Assembly (NCBI RefSeq): GCF_003337735.1
Contig: NZ_QPJY01000006.1
Coordinates: 93,005-157,004, forward strand
DNA length: 64,000 nucleotides
Direction of reading: 5' to 3'
From: Thioalbus denitrificans
GTDB taxonomy: Bacteria; Pseudomonadota; Gammaproteobacteria; DSM-26407
This document shows positions 16,306 to 62,522 of the stretch, in pieces (the stretch's first letter is position 1; the number at the start of each line of letters is the position of its first letter). Under the pieces are notes generated by a model. The model did no database searches. It was not told the origin of the DNA and saw nothing but the letters and a program-made list of their open reading frames with translations. The translations under genes and the position numbers were made by a program.

Positions 16306-16641
16306 TTCACCACGAAGGCACGAAGGACACGGAGAAAGGCGGGAAGAGTGACCTGGCTTGTTGGAGGGACGCCTGGTTCAAGCGACCTGCCCCTCGACAA
16401 CATCCAGAACAATCCTGTCCATCCTGTGAATCCTGTCTGTTCAGGTTCCCTACAAACCATTCACCACGAAGGCACGAAGGACACGGAGAAAGGCGGGAGG
16501 ACTTGAACTGTTGGAGGGACGCCTGGTTCAGGCGACCTGCCCCTCGACAACATCCAGAACAATCCGGTCCATCCTGTGAATCCTGTCTGTTCAGGTTCCT
16601 TCTGTTTTGCTTCGTGTCCTTCGTGCCTTCGTGGTAGATCC
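16306..16641. repeat. Nested repeat R3 with a 154-bp tandem duplication
   Basis: This element fills the 425-base gap between the nitroreductase and glnB. Copy 1 (16306-16459) and copy 2 (16460-about 16603) are direct repeats, each starting TTCACCACGAAGG and ending in ACAGGATT-type sequence in reverse complement (AATCCTGTC). A closing right arm CTTCGTGTCCTTCGTG follows at about 16610-16641. The core matches the elements at 22364-22602 and 23834-24030. Confidence 0.85.
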
Positions 16642-51647: not shown

Positions 51648-54405
<2,758 letters not shown>

Positions 54406-54409
<4 letters not shown>

Positions 54410-55827
54410 AGGCCACCTCCCATGCTTTTCCCGAGAATGCCGCCCGGGCGCTGGCCGATGCCCGCCTGCAGCAGGCCCTGGGCCGGGCCCGGGGCGGATT
54501 CGTGGACAAGCGCGCCGCCGCCGTGGCGGCCCTGCCGGAGTTCGAGGCGCTGCGGGAGCGGGCCCGGGCCATCAAGGATCACACCCTGGCGCACCTGGAC
54601 TGGTACCTGGAGCGGTTCGAGGCAAAGGTCCGGGAACAGGGCGGCCAGGTGCACTGGGTCCGGGACACCGCCGAGCTGCAGGCGCAGGTGCTGGAGATCT
54701 GCCGCGCCGCCGGCGCCCGCCGCGTCACCAAGGGCAAGTCCATGGTGGGCGAGGAAGCGGCGCTGAACGAGGCGCTGGAGGGCGGGGGGCTGGAGGTCAC
54801 CGAGACGGATCTCGGCGAGTACATCATCCAGCTCGCCAAGGAGCCGCCCAGCCACATCATCGCCCCGGCCATCCACAAGACCCGCGAACAGGTGGACGAG
54901 CTGTTCCACCGCTTCCACGCCGACCTCGACCCGCGCCCCCTGACCGAGGTGGCGGAGCTGGTGGACGAGGCCCGCCGGGTGCTGCGCGACCGCTTCATCG
55001 CCGCCGACGTGGGCATCACCGGGGCCAACTTCCTGGTGGCCGAAACCGGTTCGGCCATCATCGTCACCAACGAGGGCAACGGCGACCTCACCGCCACCCT
55101 GCCCCGGGTCCACATCGTCACCGCCAGCCTGGAGAAGGTGGTGCCGAACCTGGATGACGCCGCCACCCTGCTGCGGCTGCTGGCGCGCAGCGCCACCGGC
55201 CAGGAGTTCACCTCCTACACCACCCTGTTCACCGGGCCGCGCCGGGAGGAGGACCCCGACGGCCCCGAGGCGTTCCACGTCATCCTCCTGGACAACGGCC
55301 GCAGCGCCATGCTCGGCGGCCCGTTCAGCGACATGCTGCGCTGCATCCGCTGCGGCGCCTGCATGAACCACTGTCCCGTCTACGGCGCCGTGGGCGGCCA
55401 CGCCTACGGCTGGGTCTATCCCGGCCCCATGGGCTCGGTGCTGAGCCCCATGCTGGCGGGGCTGGAGGAGACCCGCCACCTGCCGGAGGCCTCCACCCTG
55501 TGCGGGCGCTGCGGCGAGGTGTGCCCGGTGCGCATCCCGCTGCCCGGGCTGCTGCGCCGGCTGCGGGAGCGCAACTTCAGCGAGGGCAACACGCCCGCGC
55601 GCTGGCGTCTCGGGCTGCGCCTGTGGGGCGCCGTCGCCGCCCGGCCCGCCCTCTATCGGGCCGCCACCGGCGCGGCGGCCTGGGTGCTGGGTCGGCTCGG
55701 GCGCCGCCGTGGCGCCTTCCGCCAGCTCCCCGGCGCCGGCGGCTGGACCGCGACCCGCGACCTTCCCGCTCCCGCGGGCGAGACCTTCATGAGCCGCTGG
55801 AAGCGGCAGGGAGGCGAGCGCCCGTGA
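54406..55827 (+). CDS. lutB: LutB/YkgF-type iron-sulfur oxidoreductase subunit
   Basis: A 473-residue protein. The N-terminal DUF162-like region (about 60-300) includes RVTKGKSMVGEEAALN and FLVAETGSAIIVTNEGNGDL. Two [4Fe-4S] clusters follow: CIRCGACMNHCPVYG (about 310) and STLCGRCGEVCPVRIPLP (about 364). The C-terminal part has a DUF3390-like helix region. It overlaps lutA by four bases and lutC by four bases (GTGA), so the three are translationally coupled. It is the electron-transfer core of lactate oxidation. Confidence 0.95.
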
Positions 55828-56474
55828 GCGACGCACGCAAGGCCATCCTGGCGGCCATCCGCGGCAACCTCGGCCGCGGCCCGGTGGAGCCGGTCAGCGC
55901 CCGGGCCCTGGAGGAGCGGCTGCGGGGTTCACCCGGCGCGCCCCGCCCGGCGCTCGCCGGCGAGCCGCTGGAGCGGTTCCGGGAACGGGCGCTCCGGGCC
56001 GCGGCCAGCCTCGAGGCGGTGGACGGCCGGGAGGCGATTCCCGCCGCGGTGGCGGCCTGCCTGGAGCAACGGGAGCAGGCGCGGCGCCTGGTCTGCGGCA
56101 CCGATCCCTGGCTCACCGGCCTGGACTGGGCCGGGCGGGACATCGAGCTCCGGGAGGGCACCGCCGAAGCCGACGACCGCGTGGGGCTGAGCCGGGCGGA
56201 CCTCGCCGTGGCCGAGACCGGCAGCGTGGTGCTGCTGGCGGGTCCGGGCAACCCCACCCGCATCAACTTCCTGCCCGAGCTTCACATCGTGGTGGTGGAG
56301 GCGGAACGGGTGGTGGACGGGCTGGAGGAGGTCTGGACCGAGCTGCGCCGGCGCGGCCTGCCGCGGGCGGTGAACTTCGTCACCGGCCCCTCCCGCACCG
56401 CCGACATCGAGCAGACCCTGCAGCTCGGCGCCCATGGCCCCCGCCACCTGCACCTCATCCTCGTCGGCGGCTGA
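55824..56474 (+). CDS. lutC: LutC/YkgG family protein
   Basis: A 216-residue protein starting at GTG 55824 within the lutB stop. The LUD domain includes GLSRADLAVAETGSVVLLAGPGN, PELHIVVVEAERVV and FVTGPSRTADIEQTLQLGAHGPR (shown in parts). LutC is required with LutAB for lactate use, but its catalytic role is not clear. The N-terminal 60 residues are Arg/Ala-rich and loosely conserved. The gene ends the pgm-lutABC unit; a palindromic repeat follows. Confidence 0.92.
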   Translation: MSDARKAILAAIRGNLGRGPVEPVSARALEERLRGSPGAPRPALAGEPLERFRERALRAAASLEAVDGREAIPAAVAACLEQREQARRLVCGTDPWLTGLDWAGRDIELREGTAEADDRVGLSRADLAVAETGSVVLLAGPGNPTRINFLPELHIVVVEAERVVDGLEEVWTELRRRGLPRAVNFVTGPSRTADIEQTLQLGAHGPRHLHLILVGG

Positions 56475-57208: not shown

Positions 57209-57348
57209 GGTGCGCACGGCGCATCCTACGTTCTATTGAAATCTCACCACGAAGGCACGAAGAACACGAAGTAAAGCAAAACGTAGGGTGCGCCGTGCGC
57301 ACCGGGACACACACAATCCCGTCAATCCTGTAAATCGTGTCTATATAC
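57209..57348. repeat. Composite repeat R9 with GCGCACGGCGCA arms
   Basis: Inverted arms GGTGCGCACGGCGCATCCTA (57209-57228) and its near reverse complement ending GTGCGCCGTGCGCACC (57280-57303) enclose a CACGAAGG arm (57245-57270). A trailing AATCCTGTAAATCGTGTC (about 57325-57342) belongs to the ACAGGATT family. A single related arm occurs at 17067-17092 upstream of glnB. The element lies 6 bases from the hydrogenase protease stop. Confidence 0.75.
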
Positions 57349-57353
57349 AAATA

Positions 57354-57807
57354 TCAAACACTCCCTGCCGCCAGCTCTGCCACCAGGGTCTCCACCGCCC
57401 GCTCCACGGCGGGTGACATGGCCTCGCCCAGGCCGAAGCGCTCGCCCTCGATGGCATGGAGGTCGAGCCGCGCCGGCAGGCGGCCTAGTGTTCCGGCCAG
57501 GGCGAGAGCCTCGGCCAGCCCGAAGGCATGGCTGGAGCCGAGGCGCAGGGCGGCGGGGAGGGAATCGTCCGGCAGCCGCCAGTGGCGAAGAGTGCCGGCC
57601 GGGGCGTCGGAACGGCAGACATCCACCAGGGTGACCCGGTCGTGCCCCACCCAGGATTCCATGAGCACCGCGCCGTCGCCGGAGAACTCCCGCACCTCCA
57701 CCTCCGCCAGGCGGCCCCGGAGCCGTCTCGCCACCTCCAGGCCGGCCTGGTCGTCGCCCCGGTAGTCGGTGCCGATCCCGATCAGGAGGCCGGGTTGGCG
57801 CGGACCG

Positions 57808-57815
<8 letters not shown>
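57354..57815 (-). CDS. Hydrogenase maturation protease
   Basis: A 153-residue protease of the HycI/HyaD (M52) family. [23 protein letters not shown] carries the conserved GxG...RGDD block with the Ni-sensing Asp. [19 protein letters not shown] contains the second Asp, and [15 protein letters not shown] the His. It cuts the short C-terminal tail from the large subunit after Ni insertion. The GTG start at 57815 overlaps the large-subunit stop by eight bases, and it is the last gene of the hydrogenase operon. The frx/hyh nomenclature varies, so no symbol is given. Confidence 0.9.
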
Positions 57816-59101
<1,286 letters not shown>

Positions 59102-59109
<8 letters not shown>

Positions 59110-59869
59110 GCTTCTGGCTCTCTTCACGGAAGGCCGGTGCGTTGGCGTTGAAGGTGCTGTAGAGGTGGCCGATGGCGCGGCCGCCGAGCCCCTCCGCACC
59201 CAGCTTCGCGCTCAGCGCGGCGGTGTTGGGCGCCTCCTTGGGGCCAAAGCAGCCGTAGCAGCCGCGGCTGCAGGCGGGACAGAGATTGCCGCAGCCGGCC
59301 TGGGTCACCGGCCCCAGGCAGGGGGTGCCGTGGGCCACCAGCACGCAGACGGTGCCGTGGCGCTTGCACTCCACGCACTGGCTGTGGTCGGGGATGTTGG
59401 GGCGGCGCCCGTTGAGGGTGGCGTTCACCACCTCCAGCAACTGGTGCTTGTTGACCGGGCAGCCGCGCAACTCGAAATCCACCGGCACATGGTCCTGGAT
59501 GGCGGTGGCGGTGGCCAGGGTGTCCAGGTACTCCGGGTGGGCGTAGACGGCGCGGGCGAAGGCGTCCACGTCGGCGAAGTTGCGCAACGCCTGGATGCCG
59601 CCGGACGTGGCGCAGGCGCCGATGGTCACCAGGAAGCGCGACTGGCTGCGCACCTTGCGGATGCGCTCGGCCTCCTCCGGGGTGGTGATGGAGCCCTCCA
59701 CCAGGGACAGGTCGTAGGGCCCGCGCAGCCGGGCCCGGGTGGCCTCCAGGAAGTAGGCGATATCCACCGCGCCCGCCACCGCCAGCAACTCGTCCTCGCA
59801 GTCGAGCAGGCTCAGCTGGCAGCCGTCGCAGGAGGAGAACTTCCATACCGCCAGTTTCGGTTTTCTCAT
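59102..59869 (-). CDS. [NiFe] hydrogenase small (delta) subunit
   Basis: A 255-residue electron-relay subunit from ATG 59869 ([19 protein letters not shown]). Proximal cluster ligands in [24 protein letters not shown] and [11 protein letters not shown]. Distal clusters in [11 protein letters not shown] and [18 protein letters not shown]. There is no twin-arginine signal, so it is cytoplasmic, as expected for group 3. ATG 59869 is chosen by family start and a AGGTGA ribosome-binding site. A repeat element (R10) interrupts the operon directly upstream. Confidence 0.93.
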
Positions 59870-59896
59870 CGCAATCACCTGGACATGAAAAGGCAT

Positions 59897-60062
59897 TGAA
59901 TAGACAGTATTTACAGGATTGACAGGATTTTTCTGTCCGCAGTCGGACCGGATGTTTCTGGCTATTTGGACACCGCCTGCCTGGCTTTCCACCACAACCC
60001 TATGGGGTTCCGATCAAGTACTCCTTTTCGAATCCTGTAAATCCTGTAAATCCTGTCTATTC
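59897..60062. repeat. Palindromic repeat R10 inside the hydrogenase operon (ACAGGATT arms)
   Basis: Fills most of the 199-base gap between the gamma and delta genes. Left arm GAATAGACAG...ACAGGATTGACAGGATT from 59897, core of about 80 bases, right arm AATCCTGTAAATCCTGTAAA (to about 60062) with two extra units. On RNA this would form a long stem-loop in the middle of the operon transcript. Confidence 0.85.
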
Positions 60063-60068
60063 CCATTC

Positions 60069-60893
60069 TCAAAGCTCGCGGACGTTGAAGCGCGAGCGGA
60101 TGCGGTCGAAGCGGAACACCGGGCCGTCCTTGCACACGAAGCTGGCGCCGAACTGGCAGTGGCCGCAGAAGCCCACGGCGCACTTCATGTTCCGCTCCAT
60201 GGAGGCGTGGATGCGGCGGTCCTCCACCCCGGCGCTGTTCAGCGCCTCGACGGTGAAGCGCATCATGATCTCCGGGCCGCAGAGGAAGGCCGCGGTGTTC
60301 GGGGCGTCGAAGCGGGCGCGCTCGATGAGCCTGGTCACCACGCCCACGTTGCCGGCCCAGCCGGGGCTGGCCCGGTCCACGGTGACGTCCACGTAGGTGT
60401 CCAGCCGCCCGCTCCAGCGCTCCAGCTCGGCGCGGTAGAGGATCTCCTCCGGGCTGCGGGCGCCATAGAGGATCACCACCCGGCCGTAGCGGGTGCGATT
60501 GGCCAGCACCTGGTGGATGGCCGGGCGCAGGGGCGCCAGGCCGATGCCGCCCGCCACGAAGACCACGTCCATGCCCTCGACCTCGGCGACCGGCCAGGCG
60601 CTGCCGAAGGGACCGCGCACGCCGACGCCGTCCCCGGGGCGCAGCCGCTCCAGCGCCTCGGTCACCGCGCCCACCGCGCGGATGGTATGGATCAGTCGTT
60701 CCGGCCGGTCCGGATCGCCGCTGATGCTGATGGGCGCCTCGCCGACACCGAAGGGGTAGAGCATGTTGAACTGCCCCGCCCGGAAGGGAAATGCCCCCGC
60801 CGGGGGCGTCAGCTCCAGGGTGAAGACGTCGTTCAGCTCGCGCCGGAAGCGCGCCACCTCGAACAGGGTGGGCAGCATGGGATCCCGCGCCAC
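60069..60893 (-). CDS. Hydrogenase gamma subunit (FAD/NAD(P)-binding, [2Fe-2S])
   Basis: A 274-residue diaphorase-type subunit. FAD-binding beta-barrel (about 1-105) with FPFRAGQFNMLYPFGVGEAPISIS (shown in part). NAD(P)-binding domain with FVAGGIGLAPLRP and FLCGPEIMMRF. C-terminal iron-sulfur site CAVGFCGHCQFGASFVCKDG, four Cys as in PyrK-type [2Fe-2S] proteins. It passes electrons between NAD(P)H and the hydrogenase clusters. The GTG start at 60893 lies three bases after the upstream stop and has a GGAGGGG site; an in-frame ATG lies five codons later. Confidence 0.9.
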   Translation of the reverse strand: MARDPMLPTLFEVARFRRELNDVFTLELTPPAGAFPFRAGQFNMLYPFGVGEAPISISGDPDRPERLIHTIRAVGAVTEALERLRPGDGVGVRGPFGSAWPVAEVEGMDVVFVAGGIGLAPLRPAIHQVLANRTRYGRVVILYGARSPEEILYRAELERWSGRLDTYVDVTVDRASPGWAGNVGVVTRLIERARFDAPNTAAFLCGPEIMMRFTVEALNSAGVEDRRIHASMERNMKCAVGFCGHCQFGASFVCKDGPVFRFDRIRSRFNVREL

Positions 60894-60896
60894 GAT

Positions 60897-61379
60897 TCAG
60901 CCCCTCCGCTCGCCGGGCTTACCGTACATGTCGAACAGCTGCAGCCGCGCCGCCGCGAGCCGGGCGGAGAGGACCGGCGCGAACCGCTTCATCAGGTCGA
61001 AGCCGAGGCTGTGATCCGCCTCGCACTTGTCGCGCAGGCACTTGGCGTCCAGGCCGACCACCCGGGTGAGCTGCACCGCGCGGGCGTCGAACAGCCAGCG
61101 GTAGGGCGGAACGATCCAGGAGGAGCCCAGGATCTCCCCCTCCCCCAGGGTCTGCAGCACCATCGGCTCACGCCCGGGGGCATGCAGCTCCACGGCCACC
61201 GCGCCATGCCGGATGAGATAGAAGCGGTCGGCCGCCTCGCCCTCGCGGAACAGGTACTGGCCGGCGTCGATGCGCTCGTTCGCGCCGCAGCCGGCGATGA
61301 GCTCCAGGTAGTCGGGTTTCATGCCGCTGAAAAAGGGATGATCCCGCAGCAGCTTGTCGATGCCTTCGAATTGTGACAT
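60897..61379 (-). CDS. Cyclic nucleotide-binding domain protein in hydrogenase operon
   Basis: A 160-residue protein with one cyclic nucleotide-binding fold (about 10-125). [23 protein letters not shown] (shown in part) is the start of the phosphate-binding cassette region and [25 protein letters not shown] (shown in part) the cassette itself. There is no helix-turn-helix, kinase or channel domain after it, only a helical tail ([22 protein letters not shown]). Located between the beta and gamma subunit genes with three-base gaps, so it is certainly co-expressed. It may bind a nucleotide or act as a structural subunit; its GE...R ligands are only partly conserved (WLFDARAV in place of R-T/S-A-T). 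Confidence 0.85.
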
Positions 61380-61382
61380 GGC

Positions 61383-62522
<1,140 letters not shown>

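Follow-up and report, generated by a model that had tools for sequence, protein, structure and literature searches.

[NiFe] hydrogenases of group 3b occur widely and can run in both directions, and, to our knowledge, little is understood of what determines the direction. In Thioalbus denitrificans, a small gene for a cyclic nucleotide-binding (CNB) domain protein stands in the middle of the operon for such an enzyme, within the 64,000 nucleotides of contig NZ_QPJY01000006.1 analysed here (positions 93,005 to 157,004 of the forward strand; the window). Is its product a regulatory part of the hydrogenase, a structural one, or a sensor that merely shares the transcript and has its partners elsewhere? 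If one branch of group 3b, spread over several phyla, conserves a gene of sensor-like build, this would offer a concrete handle on the direction of these enzymes.

The hydrogenase operon of the window

The operon is complete and has the order beta-CNB-gamma-delta-alpha-protease, with all genes on the minus strand. The features, with positions numbered within the window, are as follows:

61383–62522, minus strand: hydrogenase beta subunit (4Fe-4S dicluster; PF17179, E 4.3e-34; NCBIfam HydB model, E 3.1e-41, 141 bits, under the cut-off of 750)
60897–61379, minus strand: CNB single-domain protein, 160 aa (PF00027, E 9.1e-14)
60069–60893, minus strand: hydrogenase gamma subunit (FAD/NAD(P)-binding; PF00175 and PF10418; HydG model, E 1e-50, under cut-off)
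59909–60060: inverted copies of the repeat ATTTACAGGATTNACAGGATT, within the gap between gamma and delta
59102–59869, minus strand: hydrogenase delta (small) subunit (PF01058, E 1.3e-24; HydD model, E 2.1e-44, under cut-off)
57808–59109, minus strand: hydrogenase alpha (large) subunit (PF00374, E 1.3e-25; ShyA model, E 3.3e-75, under cut-off)
57354–57815, minus strand: hydrogenase maturation protease (TIGR00072, E 1.2e-26, above cut-off)

With all four subunits, both nickel-binding CxxC motifs of alpha (RICGIC and DPCISC, read in the translation) and the maturation protease, the enzyme was assigned to the group 3b [NiFe] hydrogenases. No equivalog names are given to its subunits because all four Hyd/Shy NCBIfam matches fall below the equivalog cut-offs. 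Judged by its family, the hydrogenase is probably soluble and NAD(P)-linked, with NADP(H) as the presumed electron partner. The CNB gene is separated by three bases from beta (61380–61382) and by three bases from gamma (60894–60896), exactly as the first-pass annotation of this DNA had described. The gap between gamma and delta is longer and measures approx. 170–200 bases according to the delta start chosen, an ATG at 59896 being the alternative one.

Two dispersed repeats were observed in the window. The intergenic-looking repeat CCACGAAGGCACGAAG has 18 matches with up to 2 mismatches (0.03 expected), e.g. at 57247, 62596 and 62815, and often forms inverted pairs approx. 150–300 bases apart. 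The second, ATTTACAGGATTNACAGGATT, has 7 matches with up to 2 mismatches (0 expected) and is also found at 16411, 22414, 23881 and 57315; its copies inside the operon probably do not belong to the hydrogenase system. LutABC-type lactate-utilisation-like genes, judged from the open reading frames alone, lie near the operon on the plus strand (53363–56474).

Domain and predicted structure of the CNB protein

The CNB gene starts with ATG. It is not a chance reading frame, since it recurs in the same place across several phyla and since comparison with a 98%-identical copy (L001) gave a dN of 0.008 and a dS of 0.079. The Pfam model PF00027 (cNMP_binding) matched residues 36–121 at 51.6 bits (cut-off 27.5), and the AlphaFold2 model built from 22 alignment rows (pLDDT 90.4, pTM 0.81) has the CNB fold; both Foldseek and VIA matched it to CNB domains. 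On both grounds, the protein belongs to the CNB superfamily. It was predicted to be a single-domain protein with no output domain, which agrees with these results: a second Pfam domain was not found in it, and the CNB domain is followed by one long C-terminal helix (residues 123–152 in the model), after which the protein ends at residue 160. A Crp/Fnr transcription factor was rejected as the protein stops after the C-helix and has no C-terminal DNA-binding helix-turn-helix. Dimerisation through this helix is plausible on the model, because the long C-helix serves as the dimer helix in Crp/Fnr proteins.

The best match among solved structures was the CNB protein 3mdp with a Z score of 19.8 (rmsd 1.6, 132 residues aligned). 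Further CNB domains matched the model in numbers at Z 15.5–17.4, and PKG and GlxR were among the matches of the protein. The CNB-homology domain of KCNH2 (6syg; Z 15.8, rmsd 1.9, 126 aligned) was tied with many ligand-binding CNB domains. No solved structure named as HoxI or as the operon CNB family was found among the best 60 of 116 matches, and none so named as HoxI among the 16 matches to HoxI.

Elsewhere in the genome, which comprises 4.14 Mb in 21 contigs, five CNB matches were obtained, all of them weak (E values of 1.4e-6 and above); another close copy of the protein was not found. A search for viral relatives returned 83 pattern matches and no true relative. The top NCBIfam match of the protein was Encapsulin family 2B (E 2.7e-9, 36.7 bits), a model whose cut-off is 400. 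In the excerpts of PMC8346489, CNB domains are described as parts of encapsulin shell proteins, and family 4 encapsulins as neighbours of sulfhydrogenases; a link between encapsulins and the CNB gene was not found there.

Replacement of the phosphate-binding cassette

61077–61139, minus strand: altered phosphate-binding cassette (CNB residues 81–101)

The Glu and Arg positions of the cassette, which we take to be the canonical contacts to cyclic nucleotides, are occupied by S86 and W95 in the window protein. The positions were equated by gap-free profile alignments over the cassette to 3mdp and PKG and by a multiple alignment. Trp was present at position 95 in all 52 operon copies, and position 86 held W (28), A (10), V (5), L (4), S (3) or T (2). 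Thus, neither Glu at 86 nor Arg at 95 occurred in any of the 52 copies, compared to 10/12 and 9/12 for other CNB proteins and 9/17 and 11/17 for HoxI-like ones. W88 and P92 were each kept in 51/52. L022 (broken CNB frame), L143 (same locus as L021) and CNB stretches below 90 bits or 110 residues were left out of these counts. The counts are partly selected because the loci of the first scan were found with six peptide patterns, WIVPPYRW among them; 25 of the 52 copies came via searches with the delta subunit, and W95 was present in all 25. A canonical receptor subunit for cAMP or cGMP, to which the CNB fold and the matches to PKG and GlxR might point, was rejected on these residues and is very improbable.

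The phosphate-binding motif had been described as partly lost. It is indeed altered at S86 and W95, but conserved tryptophans and prolines stand in its place. Because W95, W88 and P92 are conserved across the operon copies, the canonical site appears to have been swapped for a conserved arrangement rather than to have decayed. The pocket would then either take a different ligand or be occupied by its own tryptophans. The latter leads to a structural or assembly subunit that fills its own pocket and only stabilises or assembles the complex. KCNH channels have CNB-homology domains whose pockets are occupied by the protein itself; the KCNH2 match, the invariant W95 and the residues at the Glu position fit this reading, as do conserved C-helix residues that suggest a protein interface, namely, R140 (50/52), R145 (48/52), D150 (50/52) and Y152 (50/52). 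However, sister operons do without the CNB gene, and stand-alone actinobacterial copies retain the cassette (W88 in 5/5, W95 in 4/5), which a mere hydrogenase linker would not need. We regard a purely structural role as rather doubtful.

A metal or redox site formed by cysteines is not claimed, since none of C31 (42/52), C114 (39/52) and C119 (37/52) is invariant.

Distribution of the CNB gene in genomes and plasmids

A scan of the genome collection with the CNB protein yielded 22 loci, which are thus selected on CNB, and the order beta-CNB-gamma was found in 20 of them. The remaining two are Mycobacterium bins with a CNB gene and no hydrogenase genes in the available stretch (the frame of L022 is broken). 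The order was found in five phyla, in accordance with the earlier statement that the gene is built into the hydrogenase operon.

To obtain loci unselected for CNB, further searches were run with the delta subunit. In Pseudomonadota, 29 of 398 genomes matched and three of the 29 carried the CNB gene, the window among them. These three (the window, G187 and G016) belong to the 11 matches with at least 48% identity, of which seven had no CNB gene and one (L046) was cut off. No CNB gene was found at the 18 weaker matches (30–41%), L062 showing delta alone with no neighbouring subunit. Among relatives, 8 of 37 genomes matched, including the window's own and a contig of the same genus that starts just before delta; no CNB gene was found beside delta in the other six (L070 being incomplete). 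Actinomycetota gave 54 matches in 52 of 296 genomes, with CNB in 13 of the best 30 loci, and in 13 of the 18 closest ones (identity of 57% or more). In Chloroflexota, 23 of 201 genomes matched and 11 of the 23 loci carried CNB, one being the seed genome.

Altogether, 27 of the 89 loci reached via delta in Pseudomonadota, the relatives, Actinomycetota and Chloroflexota carry the CNB gene, the absence being weak at L046, L065, L070, L097 and L101 with incomplete neighbourhoods and at L062 with delta only. The survey of group 3b operons that the first-pass annotation had called for thus gave a divided answer: the gene does recur, but it is confined to one branch and is not general to group 3b.

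On plasmids, 14 records matched delta and all 13 of those with at least 60% identity also hold a CNB gene. It lies inside the operon in ten (H1, H2, H3, H9, H20 and H4 were read; H10, H11, H21 and H22 were judged from coordinates) and elsewhere on the record, approx. 9–17 kb off, in three from Streptomyces. No CNB match was found in the fourteenth record (Acaryochloris, delta 30%). The reading frames of beta and CNB overlap by 4 or 14 bases in five annotated plasmid operons. A Rhodopila bin (L015, 7001–9701) has two successive CNB-gamma pairs in the order beta-CNB-gamma-CNB-gamma-delta-alpha. Its CNB copies are not recent duplicates, because they were placed in different parts of the CNB tree.

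A single branch of group 3b and co-inheritance

On a delta tree of 36 loci with and 44 without CNB, three label changes were sufficient compared to a shuffled mean of approx. 26. With 46 loci with and 35 without CNB, four changes were counted (shuffled mean again approx. 26); 23 far loci (L047–L064, L071, L098–L101) were omitted from this second tree only. The trees are quick ones with SH-aLRT support only, the root of the delta tree is unfixed and delta rows covering less than 75% of the query were dropped. Given the few label changes, the CNB gene marks one multi-phylum branch of group 3b rather than group 3b overall. The simplest reading of these trees would be about one gain and two to three losses. 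CNB-lacking loci inside the CNB-bearing branch are L085, L087–L089 (one a Mycobacterium bin) and L081. Since some lineages keep the hydrogenase genes with no CNB in the operon, the protein is not required for catalysis everywhere.

In 44 operons, the distances of CNB correlated with those of alpha, gamma and delta with values of 0.64, 0.65 and 0.63, compared to 0.64–0.71 among the core subunits. Such correlations can stem from shared descent alone. The five CNB-lacking loci were also compared at conserved positions. In four of the five, alpha slightly exceeded the 90th percentile of the rows with CNB (0.046–0.054 vs 0.045), as it also does in some CNB-bearing relatives, and the percentile was likewise passed by gamma in one locus, by beta in one locus (beta being only partly covered) and by delta in none. 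Thus, no consistent signal of a lost docking interface was found in the changes of alpha, beta, gamma and delta at these five loci. The two pairs of L015 gave a mixed picture as to CNB and gamma travelling together: CNB2 is nearest to L019 and then L008, gamma2 is nearest to L018 and L008 and gamma1 to L019, with no starred support.

CNB copies outside the operon

In three Streptomyces plasmids, gamma directly follows beta and the CNB gene is found in trans:

L167, 2670–3203: CNB copy in trans
L168, 2224–2907: CNB copy in trans
L169, 2761–3294: CNB copy in trans

Mycobacterium G431 has a hydrogenase operon with no CNB gene (L087); a CNB copy of this genome that shows the full signature stands by itself on a different contig (L009/L116). 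The whole genome G608 holds one operon copy and one stand-alone copy. The stand-alone copies of Streptomyces plasmids (L117, L118, L034, L166) lie near universal stress, CBS, GAF-kinase, globin or nitrate-reductase genes. These neighbours and the copies in trans would suit a free cytosolic sensor or adaptor that is co-expressed with the hydrogenase and acts on other hypoxia or dormancy partners and is not a subunit. SCO0168, a 'Crp-like regulatory protein' whose gene adjoins a universal stress gene, is predicted to be targeted by OsdR (PMC5069765); from gene order, we would guess that it is a member of the operon CNB family, which would fit as well.

A free sensor would, however, hardly account for the position between beta and gamma in four phyla beyond Actinomycetota or for the overlapping reading frames. 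Of the five stand-alone copies placed in the CNB tree, L034, L114, L117 and L118 adjoin actinobacterial operon copies with support of 84–96, and the fifth (L009) sits among other operon copies. This grouping suggests that the stand-alone copies escaped from operons, and we consider a free sensor unlikely for the operon-borne protein.

Proposed role

The CNB domain, its place in the operon, the distribution on one branch, the conservation of the replaced cassette and the co-inheritance were observed here. On this basis and by analogy with HoxI of Cupriavidus, we favour, with middling confidence, an accessory regulatory subunit of the hydrogenase that would read a non-canonical ligand or partner via a pocket around W88 and W95. 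The protein would dimerise via its long C-terminal helix and dock on the hydrogenase, possibly on the electron-transfer module of beta and gamma, as gene order and HoxI would suggest. The docked dimer may then tune the activation or the direction of the H2/NADP(H) reaction, depending on what the rebuilt pocket binds in place of a canonical cyclic nucleotide.

In favour of a regulatory subunit are the order beta-CNB-gamma, the co-occurrence in delta searches and on plasmids, the frame overlaps, the few changes on the trees and the correlated distances. The precedent of HoxI, a dimer on the diaphorase module linked to NADPH activation, adds to these points (PMC3702609, in excerpt). Operons with no CNB gene, the missing sign of a lost interface, stand-alone copies away from hydrogenase genes and the mixed pairing in L015 count against it. 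The same applies to the excerpted finding that removal of hoxI raised yield and activity of the recombinant Cupriavidus enzyme (PMC12281615). The suggestion in the first-pass annotation of a regulatory subunit is thus a plausible one, with the HoxI of the Cupriavidus soluble hydrogenase as its precedent.

Comparison with HoxI and other known systems

HoxI of the group 3d enzyme HoxFUYHI2 from Cupriavidus necator H16 consists, like the window protein, of a single CNB domain with no output domain, and its gene (L029) likewise sits in an operon for an [NiFe] hydrogenase that is cytosolic and NAD(P)-linked. Unlike the window gene between two electron-transfer genes, hoxI follows the protease gene. 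In HoxI, the Glu is retained, His stands in place of the Arg and there is no W/P/W cassette. The two proteins share 20% identity with an E value of 2e-6 in a single pairwise comparison. In the CNB tree, HoxI fell into a starred set with 17 Burkholderiales CNB proteins, for which some pull is expected because HoxI was the query that retrieved them. The operon CNB family, with 57 rows, makes up one side of a branch whose support is 61.9, and a joint clade of HoxI and this family was not rejected (AU test, p 0.317).

If the protein were a genuine orthologue of HoxI and brought about the very NADPH activation seen in Cupriavidus, this would agree with the same kind of operon, the same single-domain build, the AU result and the low support (61.9) of the branch free of HoxI. 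The low identity, the differing cassettes and the grouping of HoxI with Burkholderiales proteins argue against this reading. Moreover, NADP(H) binding is already expected of the gamma subunit in group 3b, in which case an NADPH switch would be partly redundant. We therefore find an orthologue with this same function improbable. As to common descent alone, the identity of 20%, the weak branch support and the AU value point neither way and lead to the wording that the operon CNB protein probably works like HoxI and not that it is HoxI. As a wider scenario, which we offer tentatively and would sooner doubt than accept, CNB proteins might have been recruited independently to group 3d (HoxI) and to group 3b, where the tryptophan pocket would read a non-cyclic gating signal, with a later actinobacterial escape to hypoxia or dormancy islands.

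According to the excerpts of PMC3702609, HoxI binds as a dimer to the diaphorase module and NADPH activation is seen only in the six-subunit enzyme. The recombinant enzyme without hoxI was obtained in higher yield and with higher NAD+/NADH activity (PMC12281615). Some other soluble hydrogenases have no HoxI (PMC12809855 and PMC7363133, both in excerpt). Relatives of HoxI were matched in 24 of 349 genomes of the order Burkholderiales, and 20 loci were examined. HoxH, HoxW, HoxU and HoxY were not found beside these 20 loci by tblastn in flanks of up to 1,500 bases; the sole match of the kind was a 27% match to part of HoxF at L122.

A CNB gene labelled HoxI lies in the Hyd-3b cluster of 'M. acidophilus' 29 (PMC12319191, in excerpt), and another is present in the 3b cluster of Rhodococcus equi (PMC13332983, in excerpt). 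Both stand inside a group 3b cluster and probably belong to the same family as the window gene. Each gets a brief mention, and the excerpts contain no survey, motif or test. Other earlier mentions of a CNB gene in a 3b cluster were not found in the open-licence literature, which mostly leaves subscription papers out of scope. Thus, a CNB gene of this kind was known from single 3b clusters, and its distribution, the single branch, the tryptophan cassette and the actinobacterial copies outside the operon are new. Labels such as 'HoxI' and 'Crp/Fnr' on these genes may be transferred names.

The closest solved protein, 3mdp (Gmet_1532 of Geobacter metallireducens), is likewise a single CNB domain with P-Y-x-aromatic common to both cassettes; it is 29% identical to the window protein and its cassette has no Trp. 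The NADPH-dependent hydrogenase/sulfhydrogenases HydBGDA and ShyBCDA of group 3b have the same four enzyme subunits as the window. Most group 3b-like operons examined have no CNB gene, including those of 10 other genomes of the same class outside the window's genus (one incomplete), whereas the gammaproteobacterial bins L014 and L019, which were found via CNB, do carry it. If the CNB protein is a subunit of these enzymes, HoxI would turn from a single case into a recurring design.
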